Shown: piece after piece, positions 5,160-27,684 of the stretch
Layout of the letters: each line of letters opens with the position of its first letter
Numbering within the stretch: position 1 is the stretch's first letter
NCBI GenBank assembly: GCA_016218495.1
Contig: JACRDU010000068.1
Location: forward strand, 1-39,606
Length of the DNA stretch: 39,606 nt
Direction of reading: 5' to 3'
From: Elusimicrobiota bacterium
GTDB lineage: Bacteria > Elusimicrobiota > Elusimicrobia > UBA1565
Notes under the pieces: model-generated
Seen by the model: only the letters and a program-made list of their open reading frames with translations
Database searches by the model: none
Told to the model about the DNA's origin: nothing
Position numbers and translations under genes: made by a program

Positions 5160-5846
5160 TCAGCGGCTGGCGAGCAGGTAGCCGCGGCCGCGCGCGGTCT
5201 TGAGCCCGGCCCCCGCGGGGCCGAGCTTGCGGCGCACGGAGGCCACCGCCTTGTCGACGCCCTCGAGGGACGCCCCCTCCCCGAGGCGCTCGAGCAGGCC
5301 CGCCTTCGAGAAGGGCATGTCGGGCGCGCCGGCCAGGACTACGAGCAGGTCGAACTCCCGCGCGGTCAGGCCCCGGACCGGCCGCCAGGAACGGCCGCGG
5401 CGGGCGAACGCCTCGCGCGCGGCGGGGACGAGCCGGACCCGTCCGACCGAGAGGGTGCCGGGAGCGCCCTCGCGCGGGAACAGCGCGCGCAGGTGCCGGC
5501 GCAGGCGGCGCAGCAGGGCCTGGTCGGGGTCGTCGGCGCGCATCAGGTCGAGGGCGCCAGCCGACAGGGCGGCCGCCAGGGCCTGCGGGGGCTCGCCGCC
5601 CCAGGCGCAGGCGACGACATGGACCGACGGGCAGCGCGAGCGCAGGGCCGCCATGGCCGCGGCGGGCCGCGGCGAGAGGACGCCGACCTCGGCCAGGACG
5701 AGGCCGCGCCGGCGCGGCCCGGCCTCGGCGGAGACCTCCTCAAGGAAGGGCACCAGGCGGAACGGCACGCCCAGGGCCGCGAACAGGCGCTCCCAGCGCG
5801 CGGCGCGCGGCCCGGACGGCGCGGCGACCCAGTAGGAGACGCTCAT
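5160..5846 (-). CDS. OmpR-type winged-helix regulator with a degenerate receiver (Asp to Glu)
   Basis: The 228-residue product has an N-terminal receiver-like domain (about 1-120) and a C-terminal OmpR/PhoB-type winged helix (about 130-228; RGLTAREFDLLVVLA, then VDKAVASVRRKLG and ARGRGYLLAS). The receiver lacks the N-terminal acidic cluster. Where the phosphorylated Asp belongs (GLVLAEVGVLSP) there is Glu53, and the conserved Lys near the C-terminal end is missing. Phosphorylation is therefore unlikely; Glu can mimic a phosphorylated Asp, so the protein may be constitutively active or use another signal. It is clearly paralogous to the gene at 28116-28829, which keeps an Asp. Its ATG overlaps the motB-like stop (ATGA), so it is the last gene of the motor-like cluster and a likely transcriptional output of it. 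Confidence 0.75.
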   Translation of the reverse strand: MSVSYWVAAPSGPRAARWERLFAALGVPFRLVPFLEEVSAEAGPRRRGLVLAEVGVLSPRPAAAMAALRSRCPSVHVVACAWGGEPPQALAAALSAGALDLMRADDPDQALLRRLRRHLRALFPREGAPGTLSVGRVRLVPAAREAFARRGRSWRPVRGLTAREFDLLVVLAGAPDMPFSKAGLLERLGEGASLEGVDKAVASVRRKLGPAGAGLKTARGRGYLLASR

Positions 5847-6532
5847 CCGCCGCGCAGGAGGCTGATCTCGATGCGGCGGTTCTGCGCCCGCCCCTCGGGG
5901 GTCTTGTTGTCGCCGACGGGGCGGTATTCCCCGTAGCCGACGCCCGAGATGCGCTTGGGGTCCACGCCGTACTCCTGGAGCTTCTGGATGACGGCGTAGG
6001 CGCGCGCCATCGAGAGCTCCCAGTTGGACTTGTAGGCCCCGTGCTTGATGGGGACGTTGTCGGTGTGGCCCTCCACGCGGACCTCGTTCTCCATGCTGAC
6101 CATGTCCTTGGCCACCGCCTCGAGGACGGCCGCGGCGTCGGGCTTGAGCACCGACTTGCCGGAGTCGAAGAGCACGCCCTCGCCCAGCGACAGCGAGATG
6201 CGCTTCTCGGTCATGATGACGGAGGCCCCGCCGCCGAGCTCGCCGCCCTCGGCCTTCGCGCTCAGCTTCTCGCGCAGCAGCATCTCCTTGTCGCGCTGCT
6301 GGGAGCGCTTCTCCACGCGCGGGTCGATCTTCCCGCCGAAGACGCGCTGGATGTCGGAGAGAGACTTCTCGATGGGGTCGATGTCCTCGACCTGCTTGGA
6401 GAGCTGGAAGGAGAGCATGAGGAGGAAGAGGATCATGAGATAGCTCATCATGTCCCCGTAGACGATGGCCCAGAGGGCGTTCTTGTTGAGGTGCCCCTCG
6501 AGCTCCTCTTTCCTGAAGCGGTAGACCGCCAT
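5843..6532 (-). CDS. motB: MotB-like stator protein (proton channel and peptidoglycan-binding OmpA domain)
   Basis: This 229-residue protein has MotB organisation. A short cytoplasmic N-terminus leads into one transmembrane helix at about 21-42 (WAIVYGDMMSYLMILFLLML), where Asp27 occupies the position of the essential proton-carrying aspartate. Next comes a plug/linker region of about 60 residues, then an OmpA/MotB C-terminal domain (about 105-229) with VEGHTDNVP at 153-161, NWELSMARA and RAQNRRIEI, the peptidoglycan-binding signature. MotB anchors the stator to the cell wall and, with MotA, conducts H+ to drive rotation. The size is smaller than typical flagellar MotB. It follows the MotA-like gene by 2 nt and overlaps the next gene by 4 nt. 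ExbD/TolR lack the OmpA domain, so MotB is the better call. Confidence 0.9.
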   Translation of the reverse strand: MAVYRFRKEELEGHLNKNALWAIVYGDMMSYLMILFLLMLSFQLSKQVEDIDPIEKSLSDIQRVFGGKIDPRVEKRSQQRDKEMLLREKLSAKAEGGELGGGASVIMTEKRISLSLGEGVLFDSGKSVLKPDAAAVLEAVAKDMVSMENEVRVEGHTDNVPIKHGAYKSNWELSMARAYAVIQKLQEYGVDPKRISGVGYGEYRPVGDNKTPEGRAQNRRIEISLLRGG

Positions 6533-6534
6533 GG

Positions 6535-7272
6535 CTACTTATAGGACATCAGGCGGCGCTCGAGCACCAGAGGCACGGTGCCCTGCATCATCCCGATGAC
6601 CCCCTCCACGACCATGGCCTTGATCTTGATCTCCTCCCACAGGCGCATGCGCAGCTTGCCGGCCACCGGGATGCAGACCAGGTTCGCGAACATGATGCCG
6701 TAGAAGGCCGAGGTGATGGCGATGGCCATGGACCCGCCGACGGCCTTCGGGTCGGAGATCTGTTGGAGCACCTTGATGATGCCCAGGAGGGTGCCGATCA
6801 GGCCGAACATCGGGCTGACGACGCCGGCGGTGCGGATGACGTTGATGACCTCGTTGGCCCGGTCGACCTGGTTGTTGACCTCGGCTTCGAGGACGCGGCG
6901 CACGAAGTCGGGGTTGTTGTACTCGAGTGCCGTCGTGGACGCCGCTCCGAGGAAGCCCGCGGCGACGTTGGGGTCGGCGGCGCGCAGGGCCTGGAGCCCG
7001 CCCTGCTGGACCTGCTCGGCGAGGCGCACCAGGATGGGGATCAGCGCGCCCGGCTCGCCGTAGGGGTCGGAGCGGAACATCGCGAAGCAGGCCATGAAGG
7101 TGTCCTTGACGTAGGTCAGCGGCGTGTTTATCAGCATCGCGGCGAAGGTCCCGCCGAAGACGATCAGGATGCCGTGGGCGTTGACGAAGATGGCCCCTAC
7201 CTCGCCGCTCATGACGCCCAGCGTGATGAGGAGGGCGATTCCGGCCGTCCCTGCGACGGTTGCGAGGTCCAT
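6535..7272 (-). CDS. motA: MotA-like stator protein
   Basis: The 245 residues fit the MotA family in length and layout: two N-terminal membrane helices (about 5-22 and 33-50), a cytoplasmic loop of about 95 residues that in MotA touches FliG, and two C-terminal helices (about 150-170 and 184-203). The two functionally important prolines are present: Pro154 in GVVSPMFGLIGTLLGI and Pro202 in NLVCIPVAGKLRMR. MotA surrounds the MotB channel helix and converts proton flow into force on FliG. The ATG shares one base with the stop of the coiled-coil gene (TGATG), which indicates translational coupling, and the MotB-like gene follows after 2 nt. A FliG domain two genes upstream provides an obvious partner. 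Confidence 0.9.
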   Translation of the reverse strand: MDLATVAGTAGIALLITLGVMSGEVGAIFVNAHGILIVFGGTFAAMLINTPLTYVKDTFMACFAMFRSDPYGEPGALIPILVRLAEQVQQGGLQALRAADPNVAAGFLGAASTTALEYNNPDFVRRVLEAEVNNQVDRANEVINVIRTAGVVSPMFGLIGTLLGIIKVLQQISDPKAVGGSMAIAITSAFYGIMFANLVCIPVAGKLRMRLWEEIKIKAMVVEGVIGMMQGTVPLVLERRLMSYK

Positions 7273-8420
7273 CAGGAACCCTCCGTTTGACGCTTCACCC
7301 AGGCCTGGACCAGGGCGAGCTGCTTGTCGATGTCCGCCTGCAGCTCGGCCATCCGTTTATGCGCCAGGGCGAGCTTCCCGCGCATCCCGGCCGCCGCCTC
7401 GGAGCCGGTCGGCTCGTCCTTGAGGGCTTCGACCGTCCGTGCCATCTCCAGCTGCAGGGCGTCGCGCTGCCGGACACACTCTACCACGGCCTCGAGAGCC
7501 GCTTCAACCAGCATGTCGGGGCCGCCGGAGCGCTCGAAGCGGTTCCGGGCCAGGCTCATCGCCTCGAGCGTGCCCTGCTCCCACTTGCGCCGGGCCTCGC
7601 GCTCGCGGTCCCGCTCGGCCTGGGCCTCCTCGAGGCGCCGCTCCAGGTCCGAGACGCGGGCGAGCACGACCGAGAGCTGCTCGAGGGCGAAGCCGGTCCC
7701 GGGCGCGCCGACCGGCGGGGCCAGGAACTCGCCGGGGCGTTCCGGTACGGAGGGCGGGGGCGGGGCCGGCGGCGCGGGCGACTCGGGGGCGGCGGCCTGC
7801 CCCAGCTGCGCCTCGATGCGGCGCTTGAGCTCGGCGCGGCCTTCCTCCGTCTCGACGAAGCGCATCACCTCGTCGGCGGGGACCATCTTCAGCTGGGCGG
7901 CGGCGAGGCGGCCCTCCAGCTCCTTGACCCGCAGGGACGCGGAGGAGTAATGCTCGCGCAGCGTCTTGTCGTAGTTCGCGGCGCGCTGGGCCTCGCGGAT
8001 GGAGCGGAAGAGGTCCTCCACCTCGGTCTGCGCCTTGCGCTGGGCTTCCTCGCGCTCGCGCATCAGCAGGTTCGAGCGCAGCGCCTCCTGCTGGGCCAGC
8101 TCGAGCTTGCGCTCGAGGAGCTCGACCTTGGTGTGCAGGAACAGGGTCAGCTCGGTCGGCGGTTTGGGCGGCTCCGGGGCGGGCGCCGCGGGAAGGGCCG
8201 GAGGCACCTCCTCGGAGGGGAAGTCGGCCGCGGGCGCCTCCATGGGCGGCGGCGCCGCGAGCTGGGACAGCCGGCCCTCGAGCTCGGCCAGGCGGGCCTC
8301 CAGGGCCGAGACGGCCTCGCTGGAGGGCGCGGGAGCGGCCGCGGCGGCCTCCTGGGGAGGAGGCTCGTCCGGCGGCGGTTCGCCGCGCAGGGTCGCTAGG
8401 AGGCGGTCTACCTTAGCCAT
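7272..8420 (-). CDS. Coiled-coil protein of the motor-like cluster, function unknown
   Basis: I recognise no family in this 382-residue protein. It has no signal peptide or membrane helix and should be cytoplasmic. Heptad-rich coiled-coil stretches occur at about 35-55, 90-205 and 245-290, and a helical C-terminus at about 305-380. They are separated by Pro/Ala-rich linkers at about 13-35, 58-88 and 210-240. It lies 8 nt after the kinase-FliF-FliG gene and shares one base with the MotA-like start, so it is very probably made together with them. A cytoplasmic coiled-coil at this place could be a scaffold between ring and stator or an adaptor to a downstream effector. It does not resemble FliM, FliN or FliH in any motif I can see. 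Confidence 0.6.
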   Translation of the reverse strand: MAKVDRLLATLRGEPPPDEPPPQEAAAAAPAPSSEAVSALEARLAELEGRLSQLAAPPPMEAPAADFPSEEVPPALPAAPAPEPPKPPTELTLFLHTKVELLERKLELAQQEALRSNLLMREREEAQRKAQTEVEDLFRSIREAQRAANYDKTLREHYSSASLRVKELEGRLAAAQLKMVPADEVMRFVETEEGRAELKRRIEAQLGQAAAPESPAPPAPPPPSVPERPGEFLAPPVGAPGTGFALEQLSVVLARVSDLERRLEEAQAERDREREARRKWEQGTLEAMSLARNRFERSGGPDMLVEAALEAVVECVRQRDALQLEMARTVEALKDEPTGSEAAAGMRGKLALAHKRMAELQADIDKQLALVQAWVKRQTEGS

Positions 8421-8428
8421 GGGTCATC

Positions 8429-10873
8429 TCAGGCCGGCTGAGCCTCCGCGATGGGCGGCGGGCCCTCCAGGGCCCCGCGCCGCTCGGCGGGGCTCTGCAC
8501 CCGCCCCTGGGCGACGAGCTTGAGGACGGCGGCGGCGATCTGCTCTTGGGCCGTCTCGACGGCCCGCGGCGTGGGCCGGGAGGCGGCGATCATCTGCTCG
8601 AGGATGGCCCAGGTCTTGGGCAGCATCTGCGCCCGGAGGCTGACGCGCACGCGCTCCTCGCCCTCATGGAGCGCCGCGGACCACTGCTCGAGGGTGACCT
8701 GGCCCATGACGATGGACCAGTCGCGCTGGTCGAGGAAGGCCACGTCCTCGAAGAGCAGCACCCGCGCGCGCACCAGGGAGTAGAGCTCGGGGTCGCGCAT
8801 CTCGAGCATTGCCAGCAGCTCGCGCTTGGCCTTCATGTCGGACTGGTCGATCAGGTCGAGGAGCTCCCGGCGCCCGCCCACCGCGCTGTCGAGCCGCCTC
8901 TCCAGCTCGTCTTTGACCGTCTGGACCACGTCCGGCTCTATGAACTTGATCGCCCCCATATTAAGGAGGACCTCGCTGTAGAGGCGGGTCGGGAGGCGGC
9001 CGAGGAAGGCCTTGCGCACCTCGGGCTTGAGGTGAGCGGCGATGAGCGCGATGTTCTCGGCGTCCTGGCCGCGCAGGATCTCGAGCAGGGTGTCGATCTG
9101 GTGGAGGCTGACGTTGAAGGCCGCCTTGGCGGGGACCGCCTCCTCCGGCGCCCCTGCGCCCTCCTTCTTCTCGCCCTCGGCCCCCTCCTCCCCCTCCTTC
9201 TTCTCCTCGCCCCCGAAGTCCATCTGCAGCTGGTGGGCCTGGGCCTGCGCCATCGAGTCCATCGCCTCGGCGAGCTTGAGGAAGCAAGCCGCAACGACGA
9301 CCAGGGTTATCAGGGTCATCAGCGCGATGAGGCCGTACTTGAAGAGCAGCCCCATCGCCTCGGGCTGGTACCAGATGGTCTTCCAGGCCGGCGCGAACTT
9401 GGCCGGGGCGATGTCGAGCACGTCGTCGCGCGTGCGGTCGAGCCCCAGGATGTCGGGCAGGATGCGGCCGATGCGGTCGCGCTCCTCGGGCGTCACGGAG
9501 TCGTCCACCACCACCGTGACGGCCAGGCGCTTCACGAACGAGGTCGGGAACGACTGCTGGCGCTCGTAGGTCTTGGTCTGCCCGAAGCCGGGCATCTGCG
9601 ACTCGGGGCTGGGGATGCCGGGGAGGAGGTCCTCGGAGCCGGCGGCGTCGGTGCCTATGTTCTGCCACAGGAACAGGGACTTGGCGTCCTTGTCGGCGCT
9701 CCCGCCGGACTTCACATCGAATTTCTCGATGCGTGTGAAGTCGAGGGCGGCGTTGACGATGACCCGGGAACGGCTCGGGCCGAGGATGGAGATCAGCACC
9801 GACTCGGCCTTGGCTTCCAGAGCCCGCTCGAACTTGGCCTTCTCCTCGAGCGGGATGGTCTGCTGGGCGGAGGCGCCGGAGGCGAACAGGCCGAGCAGGG
9901 CCAGCGCCAGGGCCGCCTGCCGGGCCGCCGGGACGCGGGCGGGCTTGAGGGGGATCTTGTACCAGAAGGTGGAGCCCTTGCCGAGCCCCGCGGAGTCGAC
10001 CCCGATGTCCCCTTGGTGCCCGCGCACGATCTCGGTGGCGATGGCCAGCCCCAGGCCCCAGCCCTTCTTCTTGTTCTTCACGTCCTGGAACTGGGACTGG
10101 TAGAACTTGTCGAAGACCTTCTTGCGCTCGGAGGGGTGGATCCCCGGCCCGTTGTCCTTGACGCCGAGGGTCAGCGTACGGCCGATGACCTTGGCGAAGA
10201 GCTCCACCCTCCCGCCCGACGGGGTGAACTTGACCGCGTTGTTGAGGAAGTTCATCAGGGCCTGGCCGAGGCGGAAGCGGTCCCCGACCACCTCGACGGC
10301 GGGGACCTCGGGATAGGCGAACTCGACGCCGTTGTTCTTGGCGATGACGCCGATGCCGGGGGCCACGTCGGCCACCAGCTGCGGCAGCAGGAAGGGCTTC
10401 TGTTCGAGCCGGAGCTTCCCCGCCTCGATGACGGCCAGGTCGGTCAGGTCGCTCATCAGCCGGTTGATCTGGTCGGTGCCGCGCACGATGTAATCGACGT
10501 ACTTCTTCTGCTTGTCGTCGAGCGGCTGGTGGGAGAGCATCTCCCCGAAGCCCTTGATCGAGGCCAGCGGCGTGCGCACGTCGTGGACGGCCATCGACAG
10601 GAACTTCGACTTCATCGAGTTGAGCCGCTCGAGCTCCTCGTTGGAGTCCTGCAGCTTGAAGGAGAGCTTCTCGAGCTCCGCCTTCCTCTTGGCCACCTGG
10701 CTCTGGGCCGTCGCCAGCTTCGTCATGAAGTTCTCGAGCTCCTCGCGGTCCCGCCGCCGCCGTCCCGAATAGCGCCCGAACTGGAAGAAGCCCGAGAGCT
10801 GGCTCACGACGAGCATGCTCGCCGCGAGCACCAGGAAGAGCACCGGCAGCAGCCCGACGATCACGACCTCCAT
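8429..10873 (-). CDS. Histidine kinase-FliF-FliG fusion protein (membrane sensor kinase built into a motor ring)
   Basis: One uninterrupted 814-residue frame holds three normally separate proteins. Residues 6-25 are a membrane helix and 45-90 a coiled coil. Residues 91-310 are a histidine kinase: phospho-acceptor His97 in AVHDVRTPLASIKG, N box NFLNNAVKF, G1 DNGPGI, F box VFDKFY, G2 GWGLGLAI. A second hydrophobic segment at 316-336 is followed by a FliF C-terminal (PF08345-type) region at 340-500, with VIVNAALDF and TKTYERQQSF...VKRLAVTVVVD. A third helix spans 507-532. After a Glu/Lys-rich linker comes FliG middle and C-terminal domains (585-795; ENIALIAAHLKPE, DPELYSLVR, FEDVAFLDQRDWSIVMGQV). 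The topology is coherent: kinase inside, FliF part outside, FliG inside. No ATG, GTG or TTG codon in frame separates kinase from FliF, which argues against two merged genes. The first FliF ring domains (RBM1/2) are missing. A GGAGG site lies 4 nt before the ATG. Confidence 0.85.
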   Translation of the reverse strand: MEVVIVGLLPVLFLVLAASMLVVSQLSGFFQFGRYSGRRRRDREELENFMTKLATAQSQVAKRKAELEKLSFKLQDSNEELERLNSMKSKFLSMAVHDVRTPLASIKGFGEMLSHQPLDDKQKKYVDYIVRGTDQINRLMSDLTDLAVIEAGKLRLEQKPFLLPQLVADVAPGIGVIAKNNGVEFAYPEVPAVEVVGDRFRLGQALMNFLNNAVKFTPSGGRVELFAKVIGRTLTLGVKDNGPGIHPSERKKVFDKFYQSQFQDVKNKKKGWGLGLAIATEIVRGHQGDIGVDSAGLGKGSTFWYKIPLKPARVPAARQAALALALLGLFASGASAQQTIPLEEKAKFERALEAKAESVLISILGPSRSRVIVNAALDFTRIEKFDVKSGGSADKDAKSLFLWQNIGTDAAGSEDLLPGIPSPESQMPGFGQTKTYERQQSFPTSFVKRLAVTVVVDDSVTPEERDRIGRILPDILGLDRTRDDVLDIAPAKFAPAWKTIWYQPEAMGLLFKYGLIALMTLITLVVVAACFLKLAEAMDSMAQAQAHQLQMDFGGEEKKEGEEGAEGEKKEGAGAPEEAVPAKAAFNVSLHQIDTLLEILRGQDAENIALIAAHLKPEVRKAFLGRLPTRLYSEVLLNMGAIKFIEPDVVQTVKDELERRLDSAVGGRRELLDLIDQSDMKAKRELLAMLEMRDPELYSLVRARVLLFEDVAFLDQRDWSIVMGQVTLEQWSAALHEGEERVRVSLRAQMLPKTWAILEQMIAASRPTPRAVETAQEQIAAAVLKLVAQGRVQSPAERRGALEGPPPIAEAQPA

Positions 10874-10928: not shown

Positions 10929-12485
10929 TCACTCGACCCCCTGGGCGGCCATGAACTGCTTGAGCTTCTCGTCGGCGGGGTTGAGCTCCAGCGCCTTCTT
11001 CCAGGCCGCGGCCGCGCGCGGCCTGTCCCCCATCGCGAAGTAGGCTGAGCCCAGGCGCGTCCACGCGGCGGCGTTGTTGGGCTCGAGCCACAGCGCGTCG
11101 CGCAGCGACTCCGCCGCCGGACCGAATCGGCGCTGGTAGATGGCGTCGACGCCCTGCTTCATGCGCAGGGCGGCCAGGCGCGCGGTCGGGAGGACGGAGT
11201 CGCGGTCGACCTTGCGCCCGGTCAGGCGCGACATGGCGTCGAGCAGCCTCCGGTAGGCCCCGCTGCGGTTGACGGTGCCCGCAGTGGCGTGGGCGAGAAG
11301 CATCGCGCGGTCCTCTTCGCCTTCCAGCCAGGCGCCGACCACGGTGTAGGCCATGAACGAGGCGGGGTTGTCCTGGAGGAACGTCTCCACGTCCTCGGGG
11401 TGCGCCTCGAGCTGCATCTCCTTGACCAGGCGCCTGAGGCGCACCGCGCGCTCCCTCCAGGACCCGTCGCCCGCGTTGGGGTCGATGCCCAGCGCCGTGT
11501 CGATGTCCTTGGAGGCGCGCAGATAGTCGCGCTTCTGCAGCTCGGCCTGGCCGTTGGCGAGGTACTCGGACGCGAAGGCCTGCATCTTGGGCGACTTGCC
11601 CTGGGCCAGCTCTTGGCGCGCCCCGAAGCGGTAGCCGATGGAGAACCTCTGGGACATCCCCAGGGTCGGATGGCTCAGCATGGCCAGGTCGAAGCGGTAC
11701 TTCGAGCGGAAGTTGATCCCGCCGCCGAAGGAGAGCTGCTTGTCCTCGAGGCCGGCCCGGACCGCGGCGATGCCCCAGGCGTACTCGGTACCCACGCGGA
11801 AGTCGCCGTCGGCCGACACGTCCGCCGACAGGGCCAAGGGACCGACCACCCGGTAGGAGACCCCCGCGCGCACCACGGGCTCCAGCTTGTCGTCGGTGTC
11901 GCCCTGCGCCAGCGAGAACGCGTTCTGGACGACCCCGCCGAACATCAGCTTGCCCGAGGCGAACGGCCCGGCCTGCACGCCCAGGTCCATCCCGACCAGC
12001 CGGTCCGAGGAGCTGCCCAGCGAGCGGTTGAGCATCTTGGCCTTCAGCCCGAAGGAGAGGTCGGGATGGAACAAGCCGCGCCAGCCGTGGGCGAGGCCGA
12101 AGGCGGTCTCCGACCAGGCGAAGCCGCCCGTCTTGTTGTTGAACTCGTCGCGCCCGTCGGCCGCCGCGGCGCCGAGACGGATGACCTCCAGGCCCCAGCC
12201 CCCGGCGCGCTTCTTCTTGTTCTGCGCGTAGGCGAGGTAGTCGTAGGTGGCGTCGCCGAAGAGCGTCGCCCGCATGAAGGTGACCTCGCGCGCGGGCAGG
12301 AGCCCGAGGCCGGCGGGGTTGTAATAGACCGAGGTCACGTCGTTGGCGAAGGCGGTGTTGGCCCCGCCCATCGCCAGCCCGCGGGCGTTGGCGCCGAACT
12401 GGAAGATCTCTCCCGGGCGGCCGCCCTGGCTCGCCCCTGCCGCGGCGGCAAGGAACATGCAGACGAGCCACGCCAAGACGCGCAT
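10929..12485 (-). CDS. PorV/UPF0164-like outer-membrane protein with C-terminal TPR repeats
   Basis: The 518-residue protein starts with a signal peptide (MRVLAWLVCMFLAAAAGAS). Residues about 25-310 are a PorV/UPF0164-type beta-barrel. The diagnostic N-terminal strand and turn are clear: GANARGLAMGGANTAFANDV followed by TSVYYNPAGLGLLPAREVTF, then repeated strands such as LSFGGGINFRSKYRFDLAML and QRFSIGYRFGAR. Residues about 318-518 are helical with TPR-like units (YLRASKDIDTALGIDPNA; ESLRDALWLEPNNAAAWTRL; GDRPRAAAAWKKALELNP). PorV proteins act at the outer membrane as cargo-binding partners of type IX secretion; a periplasmic TPR tail could bind other proteins or peptidoglycan. The gene sits 55 nt upstream of the kinase-FliF-FliG gene on the same strand, and its promoter is nearly identical to that of the giant surface protein. 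Confidence 0.75.
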   Translation of the reverse strand: MRVLAWLVCMFLAAAAGASQGGRPGEIFQFGANARGLAMGGANTAFANDVTSVYYNPAGLGLLPAREVTFMRATLFGDATYDYLAYAQNKKKRAGGWGLEVIRLGAAAADGRDEFNNKTGGFAWSETAFGLAHGWRGLFHPDLSFGLKAKMLNRSLGSSSDRLVGMDLGVQAGPFASGKLMFGGVVQNAFSLAQGDTDDKLEPVVRAGVSYRVVGPLALSADVSADGDFRVGTEYAWGIAAVRAGLEDKQLSFGGGINFRSKYRFDLAMLSHPTLGMSQRFSIGYRFGARQELAQGKSPKMQAFASEYLANGQAELQKRDYLRASKDIDTALGIDPNAGDGSWRERAVRLRRLVKEMQLEAHPEDVETFLQDNPASFMAYTVVGAWLEGEEDRAMLLAHATAGTVNRSGAYRRLLDAMSRLTGRKVDRDSVLPTARLAALRMKQGVDAIYQRRFGPAAESLRDALWLEPNNAAAWTRLGSAYFAMGDRPRAAAAWKKALELNPADEKLKQFMAAQGVE

Positions 12486-12573: not shown

Positions 12574-15500
12574 TTAGTGGATGACGCCGGTCTTTACGAT
12601 GACCTTCGCGCCGCCTGACTGCAGGACCAGCAGATAGAGGCCCTTGGACACCTTGGCGCCAGAATCGTCGGACCCGTCCCAGGAGACCGTGTTGGAGCCG
12701 GCCAGGCCGCCCGTGGAGCCGGGGGCGAAGCTCATCTCCCGGATGAGGCGGCCGAAGACGCTGTACACGCGGATAGAGACCTCGGCGTTGGCGCTGAGCA
12801 CGTAGTGGATCTTCCCCGAGGTCTTGCGCGAGTCGAACGGGTTCGGGTAGACGCTGGCGTTGGAGATCCCGTCGGTGGGCAGCGGCCCGAGCTGGACCTT
12901 CGTCTCGTCGCTGGCGCCGCTGAGGACGCCGGAGCCGGTCACCGCGCTGACGCGGACCAGCAGGGTCCCGGCGGGCAGGCCGGAGGCCTGGAAGGAGGTC
13001 CCGGTCGCCAGGGCCGAGCTCGACACGGCGAGGACGGAGAAGTCCGCCGGCGCTGCGCCGCCCGCGGCCGGGCGCGACAGGGCCTTCACGGAGGTCTTCT
13101 CCCCGGTCTTCGCATTGATCCACTGCGGGCTGGCCCCGGTCCGGTACTCGATGAGGTAGCCCAGGATGCCCGACGGGCCGCCAGGCACGGACGTCCAGGT
13201 CACCAGCAGGGCGCCCGAGCCGGCCGAGACCGTGATGGCGGGCTTGATGGGCGACTGGAAGTCCATCAGGACGCCGTCGGAGACCCCCACGGGGCTGTCG
13301 AAGCCGAAGCTGGACTGGGTCTTGACCGAGACGTAGTAGGTCGTGGCCTGGGTCAGAGGGAAGCCGGTGGCCCGGACCGAGGTCAGCGCCGCCGAGACGG
13401 CCGTCCAGGAGCGCACGTCCGTCCCTCCGGGGGTCGTGCCGACGGCGTAGAAGGCGCCGGACAGGGTCCCCGTCCCGACGCTGGAGGACCACGAGAAGCT
13501 CAGGCCCTCGAAGTCGCTGGAATAGGAGCCCGCGTCGGTCACGACGGGCAGCGACGGCGTCTTGGCGTCGAGCACGACCGCCGAGGCGGTGTTGAACGGC
13601 AGGTTCGTCGCGGCGACGGCGTCCGGCGAGGTGATGGAGAAGTCCACCGACTGGACCGAGAGCCGGATGTCGGCCCCCACGGTGGCGCTGATGTTGGGTT
13701 GGACGGCCAGGAAGTAGGTCTGGGTCGACGCGCCCACGGTCTGGGCGCTGGAGAAGGCCACCGCCGCCTGGCTGCCGCTGAAGGCCGCGCTGCCGACCAG
13801 CAAGTCGGCGCTGGAGAGCTGGCCGTCCCCGTTGGAATCCCGCCAGATCCCGACGGAGTCGATCTCGCCGGCCCCCAGGTTCCCGTTCTGGCGGATGTTG
13901 AGCGCCGTCCAGCCCACCCGGTTGCGCGACGCGCGGACGGCCAGCTTGGCCAGCGCGACGTTGGCGCCCTGGTTGACGCCCGCCCCGACCAGGTCCGTCG
14001 GGGTCAGCAGCAGGCTCTCCTCGAGCTTGCGCAAGGTGGCGTTGGCGTCCGACTGGGCGGGGAAGCCGGAGTTTACGATGAAGTTCGGCGCGGACACCGA
14101 GAAGGCCGCCGTGGAGGTCAGGATGACGGCGAAGGTGCGCCCCGGCTCGGCGAACGCCGCGATGTCGGCGGTGATGAGGTAGCGCTTCTGGGCGGTGCCG
14201 ATGTCCTGCACCTGGGAGAGGCTGAGCACGGCCGTCCCGCCCAGGAAGGCGTTGAGGCCGGAGGTGATCTTGGTGTCGGTGCCGATGTCGACGGCCCCGT
14301 TGAGGTTGGCGTCGAGCCAGACGCTCAGGGCCTTGATGTCGGAGTCCGAGGCGCTGCCCGTCGAGCGCACCGTCAGCGCCGACCAGCTCAGCGCGTACTG
14401 CGTGGTCTGCAGCGCCAAGGACAGCAGGACCTGCTCGGTGGCGCCCTGCTTGAGCTCGCCCGGGGCCATGTTCGTCGGGGTGACGAAGAGCCCCGACTGC
14501 GTGGCCACGACGGCGGCCGCGCCGGACTGCAGGGGGAAGCCCGCCGTGTCGACGGTGTCGGGCGACTCGACCTTCAGGTCCCCCGCCGCGGCGATGCGGG
14601 CGCCCACGGTGTTGCCGGCCGCGGCCGTCGTCCTCAGGTCGAAGGTCACGAAGTAGGTCTGCGTGGCCACGGTGATGGTCTGCGTCGAGAACGCCAGCAG
14701 GACGGTGCCCCCGCTGAAGGTGCCGGTGCTGATGCGCTCGTCCGAGACGATGTCGAGGGTGCCCGTGCCGTCCGCGTCGCGGTAGAGCTTGACGGCCGTG
14801 ACGTCGGCGTCGGCCCCGGTGCCGGTCCGCGTCACGCGCAGCTGGGTCCAGCGCGCCGAATAGGCGTTGGTGCGCGCCTTGAAGGCCAGCATCACGATGT
14901 TGGGCGTGCCCTGCACGGCCGTGGCCGGGGCGGAGCTGGCCCCGACCACGCCCATCGTGACGGGCGGGGCGTTGATGGTCAGGGCCGCCGAGGTGAACGA
15001 GGCGCTGGGCACGACCTGGTTGGGGGCGTTGACGGTGAAGAAGGCGCCCGTGGAGGCCCGCACTATCAGGGTCCGCGCCGGCGTCGCCCCGGTGGAGAGG
15101 TCTACGACGAGGAAATAGCGTTTGGCCGCCGTCCCCAGCGTCTGCGGGCCGGTGAAGTTGAGGATTACGCTGCCCGGGCCGTTGCCGCCGAAGGTCTGGG
15201 TGGAGAAGGAGACCGAAGAGTACTGCACGAGGTTCGAGGAGTCGAAGGTCCCCACGTCGTTGAAGTCGTAGTAGAGCTTGACCGCCTTGACGTCGGAGTC
15301 CGCCGCCGTGCCGGCCTGGTCCACGCGCAGGCTCTGCCAGACGGCGTTGGACACGTCCGTCTTCATGGTCAAAGACATCAGCGCCACGTCGGTCGTCCCC
15401 GGCTCGGCCCCCAGGGCGGGCACGATGCTGGCCGTGCTGACGGTGATGGTGTTCTGGAACTGGCTGACCGGGACGACCCCGGTCTGGATGGGCAGGGCCG

Positions 15501-18500
15501 TGGCCGTGGACAGGGCGTTGGGGGCCAAGAGGTTGAACGAGGCCGTCGAGGAGATGCGCACGCCGAGGGTCTGCCCGGGGGTGGCGTTGGCGGCCACGCT
15601 GAGCGTGACGAAGTAGCTCCGGGTGGACTGCGTCACGGTCTGCACCTGCAGCATGGTCAGGTTCGCGGTGCTGGCGGCGAAGGCGTCCGCGCCGCTGCTC
15701 AGGCGCGAGTCCACCGCCACGTCGAAGAGCCCGTTGCCGTCGAAGTCCCGGTAGACGTTGACGGCCGAGACCGCCGAGTCGGGGGCCGTGCCCAGGCGCT
15801 CCACCGAGAGCCCCAGCCAGCTGAAGTCGTTCTTGTCGCTGATGACGTCCAGGCGCAGCATCGCGGCGTGCTGCTGGCCCTGCAGGAGCGCGCCGGGCGA
15901 GATGTCCTTGATGGCGTTGAGGATGAGCATGCGGTTGACCGTGGCCTGCACGGTGCGCGAGGAGCTCTCGATGGGGAAGGTGCCGGAGACCGTCGTGCCG
16001 CTGTTGCCCGCCCGGATGTCGCCGTCGTTGAGCTTCGCCCCCAGGGTCACGCCGGGGGCGGCCGCGGGGTCGAGCACATAGGCTAGGAAGAAGACCGAGC
16101 TGGTCCCTGCCACCAGGGTCTGGGTGGATATGTCCACCGTGGCCAGGCCCGCGACGTAGGCGGCCGAGCCTACGCGCACGTCGAGGTTGGCGTTGAGCGA
16201 CTTGCCGTCGACGGTGGCGTCCTTCCACACCTCGACCGCGTCGATGTCGGAGGACTGGCCGTTGCCGGTCAGGCGCAGGGTGAAGCGGTTGACCTGCGCG
16301 GCGCCCTGGTCGACGGTGGCCGTCACCCGCAGCACGGCGAAGCGTTCGCCCTGCACGAAGACGGCGGGCGTCTCGTCGATGGCCGACACGGTGATGGTGT
16401 TGTTGAGGATGACGCCCACGGTGCTCGTGATGACCGTCGTGGAGAACGAGACCGTGTCGGCCAGGTTCTGCAGGATGACCGAGGTGGTCGCCGGCAGCGC
16501 CAGCTGGAAGGAGGTGTCCTGCGGGGCGTCGGCGGCCAGGCTGACGGTGACGAAGAACCGGCGCGGCGAGGTCGTCACGGTGCGCGAGGACACGTCGAAG
16601 CCGGCCACCGACATGGTGGCCACGGTCTGGATGCCGAAGTTGTCGGCATCCCCCGTCATCCGGATGTCGGTGTTCGCGTCGAAGATGCCGTCCTCCGGGT
16701 CGGCGTCGCGCCACAGGTTGACCGAGCGGATCTTGCTCGTGGGCGTGGTCCCGCTCATCGTGACCGTGACGCTGGAGACGATGGAGGTCCCGGTGTCGGT
16801 CTGCGAGCGCAGCTCCAGAACCGGGATGTTGTCCACGCCCGGGGTGATGGCGCTCGGGGCGAGGTTGGCGGGCGTGATGTTGAGGAAGTTGGCGCCGTCC
16901 GTCACGACCAGGGGCCCGGCCGTCACCGGGAAGGTCCCTTCGGCGCGGCCGGGATGCTTGAGGCTGACGCTGGTCGTCGAGCTGATCTCCAGCCCGACCG
17001 TGTTGTTGGTGATGGCGCCGGGGGCGAGCTTGAAGACCACGTGGAAGGTGCTGACGAGCACGTCGAGGGGTGCTCCCTGCCCGGCCAGGGTCAGCTGGGC
17101 CTCGTTGAGGGCCAGGGTCCCGAAGGCCTGCAGGGTGTCTCCCCCCGAGTAGACCCCGTCGCCATCCGAGTCGCTGTAGAGCTGGGCCTGGGTGATGTCG
17201 GAGTCCGGGATGGACCCGGTCTTGCGCACGCGCAGGCCCAGGAGGCGCGAGGTGGCCGCCTGCTTGGTGGCCAGCTTCAGGGTGGCCATCGGCACGAAGG
17301 CCCCCTGCAGCGCGCTGGCGGGGACGGCGGAGGCCGTGGTGAAGAACACGGTCCCGAAGGTGGCCGAAGAGGACGCCACGGAGGGCGTGGAGACGTTGAG
17401 GAGGTTGTCGCGCGTCCACACGCGCACGAAGTACGTCGTAGCGTCTATCAGCCCCGTGAAGGACCAGGTCGACTGCGCGACGAAGCCGCTCGAAGACAGC
17501 GGCAGCGCGAAGGCCGCCGAGGTCGAGGCCTCGAAGAGCAGGTCCTTGACCCCCGCCAGGTTGTCCGTCGCGGCGGCGGTGGCGTGCAGGGTGTCCGTGG
17601 AGAGCGGGGTCAGCGAGGTCAACAGCGGCAGCGGCACCGAGGTGTCGACGACGACGGCGAAGGGGCCGGCGGTCCGCACGCCGCCCGCCCGGTCCGGGAC
17701 GTAGTAGACGACCTGGTTGGTGGCGGCGCAGGGCGAGACCTGGGCGCAGAGGACGGCGCTGCTCGACTCGTGCAGCGGGAGGTCGACGACCCGCAGCGCC
17801 TCCAGGGCCAGGGAGCCCGGCACGGCGCTGAAGGAGAGGCGGGGCCCCGCCGGGCCCGTGGAGGCCGCGGCGGACCAGGTGGCCCCGGCCGTCGTCGAGT
17901 AGAGCACGGAGAACGGCGAGCCCGCCATCTCCTCGCGGACCGGGGCGGTCGACAGCGGCGCGGAGAAGATGCGCAGCTCGTCGAGGGAGCCGTTGAAGAC
18001 GTCGGTCCCGCCCAGCGCGCTGACCGTGTCGATTCCCACGGTGAAGGGGGTGTCGGACAGGACCGCCGTCCCGACGCACTCCGCGGCGGTGTCGCCGTTG
18101 ACGAAGACCCTGTTGCGGGTCGCCCCGGGGTCGAGCACGAGGGCCAGGTGCACCCAGGAGCCCAGCGGATAGGACATCGGGGTGGCCAGCGAGCAGCCTC
18201 CGGTGGCGGCCGCGTCCATGCGGAACCGGACGCGGCCCTGGGCGCTGTCGGCCTGGAAGCGGAAGTGCTTGGAGGCCAGCACGGTCTGGGACAGCGTGTT
18301 GTTGGCGCTGACCTTGACCCAGGCCGCCGCCGTCAGGCCGGTCCAGGAGCCCACCGGGGAGGTCGATATCGCCATCCCGGTCAGGCCGACGGGGAAGGTG
18401 AGGCCGCCCCCCTGATAGCCGGTGCCGCGCAGCGACGCGGAGCCCAGACGCCCGCCCAGGCCCTGCCCGGAGAGGTCGTACACCGTCGCGCCCGTGCCCT

Positions 18501-21500
18501 CGAAGGTCCAGGCCCCGACACGCTCCCGGGAGGGCAGCGGCACCGGGTTGAGCCCGGCCAGGGGGTCGAGCACCGTCAGCTGGACGGTGGCCCCGACGGC
18601 CAGATTGGTCATCTGCGACTCAGCCAGCACCCCGCCCGTGGAGTTGCTGTGCTGGTAGGCGCTGGTCGAGGGCGGGTTCACGTCCACCGTGAAGTTGACC
18701 GGGTCCGAGAAGGAGGAGGCCACGTCGAAGGCGTTCAGCGCCCTGACCCGCCAGAAATAGGTGGTGCCGTTGGTCAGCGAGGTGGGCGAGGCGAAGGGGC
18801 TGTTGAGGGTCAGGGAATTGACGATCATCGCGCTGAAGTCCGCGCCGGTGGAGACCTGCACGGTGTGTTTGGGCATCGTGCTGGCCTCGACCCAGGCGAA
18901 GTCGGGCAGGGTCTCGCGCATGTAGCGCGCCGGCGCGGGACTGTAGGCGGTGGGCTGCGAGAGCAGGGCGTCGACCAGGATGGCGAACGGCCCGGCCTGA
19001 CCGACCCGGCCCGCGCGGTCGGTGGCCGTGAAGCGGACCTGGTTCGTCGCCGTGCAGGAGGCGCTGCCGGCGCACAGCGTCCCCGCCGCCGACGCGGCCA
19101 GGTTCAGGCTCGTCACGGAGAGGGTCTGGGGGGCCACGCTGCCCTCGGCCCCGGTCAGGGAGACGGCCAGAGGCGTCGACACCAGGACCTGAGCGTCGCC
19201 CGAGGCCTCGCTGAGGCCCGCATACAGCCTGCCCGAGAAGGGCGCCAGGGCCAGCACCCTGTCGTTGAGGCTGGGCAGCGTCCTGACCAGGGCCCAGCTC
19301 TTGCCGTCGAAGGCGTAGACCCGGCCGTTGGAGGGGAGGGCGGAGGCCGCGTAGAGCCGCCCGGCGTGGACGGCCAGGGCGTCGGAGGCCGTCTCCGGCG
19401 GGTCGTAGCTGACGCTCCAGACGGCGCCGTCGAACTGGTAGACGATGCCGGAGTTGTTCGTCGCGGCATAGAGCTTCCCGTCGTAGGCAGCCATCGCGTT
19501 CACCGCGGCGCCCACCGCGAAAGACGCGGTCCAGGTGCTGCCGTTGAAGGCATAGACGTTCGGGTTGGCTCCGGCGAACAGGCGGCCGTCGTAGACGGCG
19601 AGGGATTCGACCACGCTGCTGGTCGACTGGAAGGACAGGAACCATTGGGCCTTCGTCGGCTCATAGCCCCAGACCCGCCCCGCGCTGTCGCCGGCGTAGA
19701 GCCGCCCGCCGTAGCTCTTGAGGGCCCGCACCGCGACCCCCCCGAAGGAGGCCTCCAGGGACCAGGACACCCCGTTGTAGGAGTGCACCTGCCCGTTAGC
19801 GTTGAGCCCCGCGTAGAGCTTCCCGCCGAAGCTCTCCAGCGCCAGGACGGACTGGCCCAGGTTCGTCGAGAGGCCCCAGACCGCGCCGTCGTAGGACCAC
19901 ACCCTGCCGGTGGCGGTGGCGCCCCAAAGGGAGCCCTGGTGGCGGGCCAGCACCCGGAAATCCGTCTGAGCGGCGTCCGCCAGGGCCGTCCCCCAGGTCC
20001 CGTCCTGCCACAGGGGCAGGGCCTGCGCCCCCTGGGTCGTGTACATCACGCCGTAGGGCACCGCCCCGTCCGCCAGAGGCGAGAGCGCCAGGCCGGCGGG
20101 GCCGGAATCTGCCAGCGTCATCTGCGCCGTCACGCCGCTGGCCAAAGACAGGCCCACCGCTTCGCCGGTGTAGCCGCCGGTGGAATTGATGGTGGCGAAG
20201 GCGGAGGCGACCGGGGAAGAGAAGTCGGTGACGAAGCTCGACACGGTCAGCGCGGGCGAGGCGACGTTGAGCCAGTCGCGGGCGCGCACGCGCCAATAGT
20301 AGGTGGTGCCGTGGGCCAGGGAGAACGTCGAGACGTAGACGCCCCGGGTGAAGGTCGCCGCGGAGCTGACGACCACCACGGGGGTCGAGATGGCGACGGC
20401 GGGCGAGGAGAAGTCGGACTGGTCGTCGACCTCGAGCAGGAAGCTGGCGGCCGAGCCCATGCCCGCGGCCGTGGCCGTGCTCGGGCCGTCCCAGGCGAAG
20501 CTGGGGCGCGTGCTGACGAAGACCCCCGGCGAAGGGAGGGTCGGGGTGGAGACCGCCGCGGCGGCCACGGTGTCGACGATGACGGTGAACGGCCCGGCCA
20601 GGGTGAAGTTCCCCTTGCGGTCCGCGGCCAGCACCCGCAGCAGGTTCGTGCCCGCGGCCCCCGTGGCCGTGGTGGTGGAATGGGTCAGGACCAGGTCTTT
20701 GACGATGATGGTCTCGGCGCCGGTCGCGCCGTCGGCGCCGGTCTGGCTCACATACGGGAAGCCCGCGGCGGGGAAGGTCGCGCTGACGACGTTCCAGGCC
20801 GCCCCCGCCGTGGTCGAGTATTCGACGCAGAAGCGGCCGGGCACCCCGCGCGCGTAGTCGGCGGCCACCTCCTGCGAGTCGGCCGCGTAGCCCAGGACCT
20901 TGACCTCGTCGATGTCGCCGGTGAAGAACCCTTCCGGGGTGACTCCGTCGGCGCGGAATCCCGCGCCGACCGAGAAGGGCATCGTCCCCCCGCCGGAGTT
21001 GGGCTGCCCGGTGCTCTCGGAATGCCTGAGCACGCCGTTTACGTAGAGCCAGACCCGCGTGCCCTTCTGGACGGCCGTCACATGCTGCCAGGCGCCCGCC
21101 TGGATGAGGCCGTTGGGGCTCAGCGCCCCGCCGCCCGTGGCGTTGGTGAGGCGCAGGGCGCCCAGGCTGTTCACATAGAGGACCCAGTTGCTCCCCGGAG
21201 AGGTCAGGGGCGCGCCGAGCCCGGCGATGACCTGGTTGATCCCGGTCACGGAGGCCGGCTTGATCCAGGCCGAGACGGTGAATGTGGAGGCCGGAGGGAA
21301 CTGGAACGACCCGTTCGCCGCCGACAAGTACTGGTTCGAGGCCAGCCTGAGCCCCGCGCCGAACGGGGTCGGGGCGTAGCGCGGGTTCTGGCAGGCGCCG
21401 AAGCAGCCGAGCGCCCCCGCCAGCCCCTGGGCCTCGTCGTTGGGCGCGCCGCCGTCGCGCTCGCTGAAGCGCCAGTAGGCCAGCGTCCCCGGGGCCGTGG

Positions 21501-24500
21501 ACAGCGACAGCGCCTGCCCCAGGCCGGACAGCGCGTCGGAGGCCGAGAGCTGCACCGTCGCGCCCGAGAGGAGGTCGATGGGGCCGGTCTCGCCGAACAC
21601 CCCGCCGGTCGAGTTGTTGACGATGAAGGAGGAGACGGCGGGCGTCGTGACGTCGACGACGAAGCCGTACGCCGGGCCCCAGGGGCCGAAGACGCCCAGC
21701 GAGCTCTTCGAGCGGACCCTCCAATAATAGGTCGTGCCGGCCCCCAGCGCCGGGAAGGTCGAGACGTAGACGCCGGTCACCCGGGAGAACAGGGCGTCGC
21801 TGACCAGGGCGGGCGTGGAGATGCTGATGATGATGTTCGGCGCGGCGAACGCCGCGTCGGCGCTGGAGACCTGGAGGAAGAACTGGCCGCCCAGGCCCTG
21901 CACGAGCGCGGTGGACGGCCCGGCCCAGTAGAAGTCGGGGCGCGGCCCGGTGTAGGTCCCCGGCGAGGGGAGGCTGGGCGTCGACACCGCCACGGGGGCG
22001 TTCGTGTCCACCAGGACGGAGAAGGGTCCCGCGGTCTTGACGTTGCCCGCTAGGTCGGCGAAGTGGAAGCGCACCTGGTTGGTCCCCAGCGCCCCGGTCT
22101 GCGTCCAGGTCGAGACGACCAGGTCCAGGCCCCGTGCCAGCAGGGAGGAGGGGCCCGCGGCGCCGTGGGCGGCCTGCAGCTCCACATAGGACCCCGCCGA
22201 GGGTACGGTGGCGTTCACGACCTTCCAGGAGCGCCCGGTGTCGGTGGAGTAGGTGACGTAATACGGGTCGCCGCGCAGGGCCGACGCGGCCAGCTCGGCC
22301 TCGGTCTTGGCGTAGGAGAGGATGCGGACCTCGTCGAGGCCGCCGCGCAGGCCGGCCCCCAGGTCGGTGGCGCCCACATAGAGCGTGCCGGCGCCGGTCG
22401 ACTGCGCGCCAAAGGCCTGGGTCCCGATGCGCACCCCGTCGGCGTAGAAGCGCGCCTCCGCACCGTCCCAGGTCATGGCCACATGGTGCCACGCCCCGGT
22501 GCTCAGGTCCGGGGAGAAGCGCACCGAGGCCCCGCCGAAGTCGGCCCCCAGCCTGCGCCCGGAGACCTGGAAGCGGTTGAAGCCAGAGGCCCCGCCCGCG
22601 CCCCAGGAGACCAGGCCCTGCACGCCCTGGGTGGAGGCCAGGTTCACCCAGGCCTCCACAGTGCGCGCGGCGTTGCCCGTCGGCAAAGAGGCCGGGGACG
22701 CGTTCTGGGCCCAGGAAGCGCTGCTCAGGCTCAGTCCGGCGTCGAAGCGCCCGGCCCCCCGCCCGGCGCCCGAGGCCGTCAGGGTGTTCCCCGCGGGCCC
22801 GGCGTCGGCCCAGTTCCCCGAGGCCTCGTCGAAGTGCCACAGGCTGACCGTCCCGCTCGAGGCGGCGAAGGGCGCCGGGCCGTCCAGGTTCAGCCCCGAG
22901 GCCGCGTCGCTGACCGTCAGCTGGGCGGTGACCGCGGAGGCCAGGTCGTTGAACAAAGCCTCGCCCAGCGGGGCGCCCAGGGAATCCAGGCTGGCGAAGG
23001 AGGCCGCGACGGGCGCCGTGCGGTCGAGCCAGAACGGACCGAGGTCGACCTGCGTCCCGGAGGAGGAGAAGACGTCGAACGCGCGGGCATGGAAATACCA
23101 GTCGTTGTTGTCGCTGGTCGCCGTCACCGTGGTCTTGCCGGCCGACCAGGAGACCGGCTCGGTGTCGTCCACCTGGGTGGCCGGGGAGCGGTCCCAGCGC
23201 CACTTGACGTAGGAGATGTTCCCGGCGCCGAAGGCTGCCTGGAACACCGTCGAGGAGACGTTGAGCCAGGTGCCGGTGGAGGGCTCGGCCGTCACCAGGG
23301 CCTGGGCCGCCACGATGGGGGCGGTGCCCGGCGCGATGGGGAAGTTCCCGGAGAAGACCGTGTCGGTGGACCCGGACAGCGTGAAGGCCGCCGTCGACGG
23401 CAGGATGAGGCCGATGCTCTTGGTGTTCTCGGCGCTCCCCGTGACGTTCCAGGACACGAAGTAGGTCTTGGTGGAGGCGTCGATGGTCTGGGCCAGGGCG
23501 GTGAAGGTGGCGGCCACGACGGCGAAATCCACGCCCCCCGGGGTGAGCAGGGTGTCGGACGCCGTGTTGAAGAGGCCGTCGCCGTTGTCCTTATAGAGCT
23601 TGAGCGTGCTGACGCTGTTGTTGGCCGCCGTCCCGGTGGACGTGACGGCCAGCTGGCCGACGGTGATGAAGTCCCCCCCGGTCCAGAGCTTCAGGCTCAT
23701 GACCGGGACGTTCGTGTCGTTTCGGAAGAGGGCCGAGGGCAGGAGCGAGGCGGCCTGGACGAAGAGGGTGTCGGACGCGTCCGTCACGGCCGTCCCGGTC
23801 GAGCGCGCGTAGCCCTTGGCCTGGCCCTCGCTGGCGGTGACCAGGGCGTTGACCGACGAGTCGGCGGCGAAGCCGTCGGCGGCCAGCCCGTCGAAGTGAT
23901 AGAGCACCGCGGCTCCGGCCTGGACGTTGCGGCGGGCGGGCGGGAGCTCGGCCGGATAGCGCACGAAGTTCGCGACGCGGACCTCGTCCATCTGCCCGAG
24001 GAACGGCACGGCTCCCCCCGAGGAGTTGGGGCCGCCGATGGAGAGGTCGCTGGCCGCGTCCGCCAGCGTGCCGCCCATCGAGCCGGTGGAGAGCCCTACG
24101 CCGTCGAGAAATATCTGTCCCGCCCCGGCGTTGAAGACGGCGGCTACGTGGTGCCAGCGCCCGTCGGTGACGACCCGCTGGCCGGAGGCGTCGGCGGCGC
24201 ACAGCACAGAGGAGCCGACGAAGAAGCTGGGCACGCCGGCCGAGCACCCCCCGGCGCCCAGCCAGAGGCGGTAGCCGTTGTTGCCGCCGTTTACGCCTCG
24301 GCTGACGATGGCGGCGTTGGCGCGGGCGGTGTCGGTGGAGCGGACCCAGGCCTCGACCGTCACCTGGGTCTGGGCGTCGATGGCCAGGTTGTAGCCGGTG
24401 TTCAGGCGGTCGTCGATGCCGTCGAAGGACATGGCGGGGAAGTCCACGGCGTCGACGCCGCCCCCGGTGACCGTCAGCGCCTCGCCGTCGAGGCGCAGCG

Positions 24501-27672: not shown

Positions 27673-27684
27673 CACGCTATAGGA

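Follow-up and report, generated by a model that had tools for sequence, protein, structure and literature searches.

A histidine kinase fused in frame to a FliF-FliG protein, encoded beside a MotAB stator in flagellum-less Elusimicrobiota

Why a bacterium should encode a histidine kinase in frame with the rotor proteins FliF and FliG, and whether such a product stays in one piece, are the questions raised by a locus of an Elusimicrobiota bacterium (assembly GCA_016218495.1, contig JACRDU010000068.1, positions 1 to 39,606; this whole stretch of 39,606 nucleotides is called the window). A preliminary description, made from the sequence alone, had reported one 814-residue frame joining an intact HisKA/HATPase kinase, a FliF C-terminal region, a membrane helix and the FliG middle and C-terminal domains, set in a flagellar context. 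Frame and domains were borne out. The frame, whose strand had been left unstated, lies on the minus strand, begins with ATG and encodes 814 amino acids with zero internal stops (Table 1). Pfam shows HisKA (residues 87-152, 3e-17) and HATPase_c (197-310, 4e-23) in the kinase half and YscJ_FliF_C (360-493, 2e-8), FliG_M (595-665, 4e-10) and FliG_C (689-792, 3e-15) in the rotor half, all five exceeding the curated cut-offs, and no match to FliG_N in the fused protein. The kinase half has what defines a histidine kinase, a HisKA domain with the phospho-acceptor His and a HATPase_c domain with N, G1, F and G2 boxes, and lacks a periplasmic sensor domain; His97, the N box (N208/N212), G1 (D240, G242, G244), F and G2 (G273, G275) do not vary among 14 aligned fused homologues. 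When the FliF-FliG part was modelled with AlphaFold2 (pLDDT 80), the model matched FliG (1lkv, E 2.6e-10) as well as the collar ring formed by FliF RBM3 (6sd1, E 2.6e-4); the domain labels are therefore backed by fold in addition to sequence. Furthermore, this part matches the FliF-FliG chain of 8z4d by sequence. The membrane helix after RBM3 had been recognized correctly; two features had been overlooked, the N-terminal helix (about residues 2-26) and, at the joint, another hydrophobic stretch in signal-peptide form (about residues 319-336).

Table 1. Position of the fused gene, its parts and the neighbouring operon genes in the window.
Feature	Position	Strand	Basis
Kinase-FliF(RBM3)-FliG fused gene, 814 codons	8429..10873	minus	ORF translation, Pfam, fused orthologues
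Kinase N-terminal membrane helix (about residues 2-26)	10796..10870	minus	sequence; kept in fused and stand-alone kinases
HisKA, phospho-acceptor His97	10418..10615	minus	Pfam; His97 invariant
HATPase_c catalytic domain	9944..10285	minus	Pfam; N, G1 and G2 motifs invariant
Joint, residues 311-336: basic stretch, hydrophobic core, ASA|QQT; predicted internal signal peptide of FliF-FliG	9866..9943	minus	alignments, motif
FliF C-terminal (RBM3 collar) domain	9395..9796	minus	Pfam; fold match 6sd1
Membrane helix after RBM3 (about residues 510-534)	9272..9346	minus	sequence; AlphaFold2 helix
FliG middle domain	8879..9091	minus	sequence and fold matches
FliG C-terminal domain	8498..8809	minus	sequence and fold matches
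Giant 5033-aa secreted protein, LamG and FG-GAP repeats, T9SS type A sorting tail / FlgD_ig C-terminus	12574..27675	minus	profile matches
PorV/PorQ-like outer-membrane barrel with TPR, 55 nt upstream of the fused gene	10929..12485	minus	profile matches
Coiled-coil-like protein, no family match, 8 nt downstream of the fused gene	7272..8420	minus	profile searches; conserved
MotA/PomA-type stator subunit A	6535..7272	minus	profile and alignment
MotB-type stator subunit B, Asp27 and OmpA peptidoglycan-binding domain	5843..6532	minus	profile and residue check
OmpR-type DNA-binding protein, degenerate receiver, 4-nt overlap with motB	5160..5846	minus	profile matches

The fused gene was searched for in 57 related genomes and then in named GTDB records. 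It is present in 15 genomes, the window's own and 14 other assemblies, one copy being cut by a contig end; all named records that have the fused gene and carry a lineage name are Elusimicrobiota, and identity among the full-length proteins is 36-80%. Recurrence of the frame in 14 further assemblies excludes both chance and a read error, and the kinase-FliF-FliG fusion is real. This answers both the earlier doubt about a frameshift or missing stop and the question whether homologues are always split at the joint. A maximum-likelihood tree of the FliF-FliG part places the fused genes in one clade (SH-aLRT 99), inside which is nested genome G003, with both halves as separate genes and a 4-base ATGA overlap; according to the tree, one fusion event and one later split would suffice, that is two changes. 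Either a true re-split or a one-base indel error could account for the separate genes in G003. Locus L115, where the kinase and FliF-FliG genes are 40 bases apart, is sister to the fused clade and looks like the pre-fusion state. A sister-family operon (PorV, kinase, MotA, FliF-FliG) also has kinase and rotor as separate genes, the FliF-FliG protein with its own signal peptide, and the stand-alone kinase outside the fused clade has about 313 residues, about 52% identity and the same N-terminal helix. The sequence comparisons indicate that the fusion is the derived state of the two genes kept separate in that operon. The same short sensor-less kinase is found near or fused to FliF-FliG across several families. 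A sister-family genome (L165, 5714-10906) has tandem FliF-FliG copies of 567 and 618 aa flanking a MotA gene, and L111 shows the same arrangement.

The joint between the halves was then compared in fused and split proteins. As noted in the preliminary description, no start codon lies between kinase and FliF in the window gene: residues 300-358 contain no in-frame ATG, GTG or TTG, and the first is a GTG at 359, inside FliF. An internal start making a separate FliF-FliG was therefore rejected for the window gene; three relatives have an ATG at the exact position, so that such a start is possible in these three but not general. Stand-alone kinases end with FW/FY-[FY]-[KR]-IP and a few further residues, at the very point of entry into the signal peptide in the fused proteins; after this kinase end, the fused proteins show a basic stretch, then a hydrophobic core, then A|Q. 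Stand-alone FliF-FliG proteins have N-terminal signal peptides with this same end point, usually a small residue followed by Gln. The -3/-1 rule holds at the joint site in 14 of 14 anchorable fused and 19 of 20 split proteins, against 0-64% at other offsets in the fused set, the pattern used as motif anchor itself favouring a small residue at -1. Because that pattern partly requires the small -1 residue, an alignment without motif anchoring is the fairer view, and it gives the same -3/-1 picture. The hydrophobic core is not conserved and ranges between 13 and 22 residues.

With its basic n-region, hydrophobic core and small residues at -3/-1, the joint has the composition of an internal signal peptide, and is predicted to be the FliF-FliG protein's own. 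The FliF-FliG gene of G003 starts directly at the joint segment, therefore the segment must be its signal peptide. Virtually all fused proteins have kept the A|Q motif, which makes a cut of the precursor at this position probable; signal peptidase cleavage into kinase and FliF-FliG is thus a prediction from the motif. The short hydrophobic core could instead remain as a membrane helix. A whole-chain AlphaFold2 model has a pTM of 0.30 and a low-confidence joint, and is therefore silent on helix versus cut. The earlier proposal that the mature product is one polypeptide forming a permanent kinase ring is not supported as stated, given the signal-peptide form of the joint and the conserved A|Q at -3/-1; such a ring is somewhat less likely than a cleaved precursor. 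A FliF-FliG paralogue of the same genome (L054, 8394-10385, minus strand) carries a TPR domain at its C-terminus and has a signal peptide of its own (ARA|Q).

The operon runs, on one strand, from the giant T9SS-tailed surface protein through PorV/TPR, kinase-FliF-FliG, the coiled-coil protein, MotA and MotB to the OmpR-type protein, with gaps of 88, 55, 8, -1, 2 and -4 bases. In fused relatives whose contigs extend far enough, PorV, the fused gene, MotA and MotB are found each time; most fused relatives also have the coiled-coil gene, and some relatives have the OmpR-type gene after motB. Where orthologous loci have enough sequence, nearly all of them encode a giant protein with the same C-terminus upstream of PorV. 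The OmpR-type protein of the window shows Glu at the receiver Asp site (Asp in five homologues) and lacks the usual acidic pocket. Three further operons of the same genome contain PorV-like, FliF-FliG, MotA and MotB genes and no fused kinase, and relatives have another class of operon, in which a HAMP-type kinase gene stands between those of PorV and FliF-FliG, in some cases overlapping by 4 bases. Elsewhere, three small adjacent ORFs (85-115 aa) with little beyond a FliG_C-like domain are found beside Rieske and cytochrome b genes (L057, G000:C33, 9723-10687, plus strand).

MotA of the window is closest to PomA/MotA and MotB retains the ion-binding Asp, therefore an ion-driven stator is likely from the sequences. 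The PomA torque-interface residues R88/K89 and E96 align with Q89, Q90 and R97 of the window MotA; owing to these changes to Gln/Gln and Arg, MotA does not retain its side of the classical torque contacts. RBM3 of Salmonella FliF is the part that forms the 33-34-fold collar, so that a ring is plausible here by analogy, while RBM1/2, FliG_N and FliM/FliN are missing and ring assembly by the flagellar route is therefore not assured.

The flagellar framing of the preliminary description is not supported as stated. FlhA (PF00771) is absent from the window's 95%-complete genome and from 56 of the 57 searched genomes, and neither FliM/FliN (PF01052) nor FliF RBM1/RBM2 (PF01514) was found in any of the 57; control genomes were positive in each of these searches. 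An ordinary flagellum is thus rejected, as in the genomes searched FlhA is nearly always, and FliM/FliN and FliF RBM1/2 always, absent. FliF-FliG itself is present in 152 of 341 phylum genomes, in operons with MotAB in the genomes examined. Elusimicrobiota have been described as without flagellar machinery, the isolates all being non-motile (2024, PMC11257099). Against that statement, full-length FlhA occurs in five of the 341 genomes (G225:C208, G223:C2, G166:C78, G173:C22 and G006:C59), where it may stem from contaminants or from true flagella. In G006, a draft of 78% completeness, the FlhA gene, contaminant or real, is on a small contig and adjoins a MotB-like gene.

The tail of the giant protein matches TIGR04183 with 34.5 bits against a cut-off of 23, and is thus a C-terminal sorting tail of the type IX secretion system (T9SS), a system described as Bacteroidota-specific (PMC7463736). 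Of the 341 phylum genomes, 297 have a SprA/Sov-like translocon (TIGR04189), among them G001, which belongs to the same genus as the window's genome; SprA was not found in the window's own draft genome and is present in relatives. One such match (L164:189-5705) scores 185 bits, below the equivalog cut-off of 200. SprA-like proteins occur in 145 of the 152 FliF-FliG genomes (Fisher p 3e-5, not corrected for shared ancestry). Among the SprA-bearing genomes, 145 also have FliF-FliG and 152 have SprA only; since half of them lack FliF-FliG, SprA-type export in general does not require the rotor. A GldM model matched 0 of 57 genomes in a search without any positive-control match. GldLM, PorV and SprB are the T9SS/gliding precedent for a motor working with a surface protein (PMC8986121).

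The reading that we prefer, and hold at about an even chance, is that of a precursor fused once in evolution and then cleaved, whose products belong to a MotAB-driven, flagellum-independent rotor that probably serves a T9SS-like surface protein, with the kinase reading assembly or load. Translation would yield one precursor, a membrane-anchored histidine kinase followed by a signal-peptide-bearing FliF(RBM3)-FliG. The kinase would remain cytoplasmic, while the retained signal peptide would thread RBM3 into the periplasm and FliG would lie back in the cytoplasm; signal peptidase would probably cut at A336|Q337 and release kinase and rotor as equimolar, co-inserted partners. An RBM3 ring could then be driven by MotA/MotB via FliG. 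Since there is no rod, hook or export gate, the force would have to act on periplasmic and outer-membrane partners, for which the PorV/TPR protein and the T9SS-tailed giant protein are natural candidates: the rotor/stator would act on periplasm and outer membrane through PorV/TPR, and its task would be to export or move the giant protein encoded upstream. As the kinase lacks a periplasmic sensor domain and its closest functional precedent is Campylobacter FlgS, we propose that it senses rotor assembly or load and passes this state on, in the way that FlgS responds to an assembled MS ring and rotor.

Other explanations were weighed against this one. The product may be one lasting polypeptide, with a joint that persists as a transmembrane helix and a kinase on each subunit of the ring, so that autophosphorylation follows assembly or torque directly. 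The uninterrupted frame, kept across 36-80% identity and without an internal start in the window gene, fits this explanation, and a helix at the joint still predicts a cytoplasmic kinase and FliG. We consider it doubtful, however, as the signal-peptidase site is kept while the hydrophobic core drifts, the split gene of G003 must use the segment as a signal peptide, and the cores are rather short for a permanent helix. The more specific version, in which a stripped RBM3-FliG with MotAB drives a T9SS-like surface-protein or gliding machine and the rotor subunits of one lineage stay joined to the kinase, so that a kinase ring has an output that follows assembly or torque, appears unlikely. It is possible, if short of probable, that this is a plain secretion or gliding rotor/stator with the kinase as a co-regulated neighbour (e.g., for envelope sensing), the fusion setting an expression ratio and having no mechanical meaning. 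The kinase-less paralogous operons of the same genome and the separate HAMP-type kinase at the same position in the other operon class are consistent with this; however, the association of the short sensor-less kinase with FliF-FliG, as neighbour or fusion partner, persists across several families, which suggests a specific tie.

Two further explanations deny the locus a function or a physical basis. The absence of flagellar parts beyond rotor and stator would suit a functionless, decaying remnant of a lost flagellum, but frames are open, catalytic residues invariant, operon order conserved and paralogues several, and FliF-FliG is as widespread as described above (152 genomes); because such sequence conservation implies selection, a remnant is very improbable. 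A sequencing or assembly artefact joining two genes has a negligible probability. Relatives do have adjacent separate genes, one pair with a 4-nt stop/start overlap, but the 15 fused assemblies are independent, and joining requires the same frame and the loss of both stop and start codons.

To our knowledge, FliF and FliG are known only as flagellar parts. The module shares with the flagellar MS/C ring and MotA/MotB the RBM3 domain, the FliG middle and C-terminal domains (by sequence and fold) and PomA/MotA-type stator genes; it differs in having no RBM1/2, FliG_N match, FliM/FliN or FlhA, and in presenting FliF and FliG as one protein with a signal peptide. FliF is also in frame with FliG in the constructs of PDB 8z4d/8z4g, which hold both in one chain, whereas the fusion reported here is natural, lacks RBM1/2 and FliG_N, and has a kinase in front. 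One gene encoding two membrane proteins that are separated at the internal signal peptide of the second is known from the Bradyrhizobium FbcH precursor (cytochrome b/c1), whose proteins are unrelated to the kinase and FliF-FliG; cleavage here is only predicted. Histidine kinases tied to FliF/FliG are represented by Campylobacter FlgS, which needs FliF and FliG to be assembled into rings before it binds them, and together with Vibrio FlrB and Pseudomonas FleS is a separate cytoplasmic kinase of flagellated cells that acts with sigma-54 regulators (PMC7064773). The window kinase, in contrast, is gene-fused and membrane-anchored, and the adjacent regulator is OmpR-type. The T9SS/gliding GldLM system (PMC8986121, PMC12635249) resembles the module in its ion-driven motor, PorV-like protein and giant CTD-tailed surface protein, and a SprA/Sov-like translocon occurs in most Elusimicrobiota genomes; the motor parts of the window are, however, FliF-FliG and MotAB, GldM being unmatched in the search mentioned above. 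The preliminary description knew of no protein with this architecture, and the open-access literature searched (preprint servers outside its scope) likewise yielded no description of FliF-FliG-kinase fusions, of FliG with MotAB in non-flagellates or of a T9SS in Elusimicrobiota.

The larger finding is the module itself, a flagellar-type rotor and stator in bacteria without flagella, with an RBM3-FliG protein in close to half of the genomes sampled from a phylum described as flagellum-less; it is best read as a rotor/stator that is independent of a flagellum, has a dedicated kinase and probably serves a T9SS-like surface protein. Should the rotor work, the flagellar motor core would have a second use, and a T9SS-like system thought to be confined to Bacteroidota would have a candidate motor. 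How cells read rotor assembly or load is an open point for FlgS and for flagellar surface sensing, and the fused kinase would offer a natural, genetically simple handle on it.
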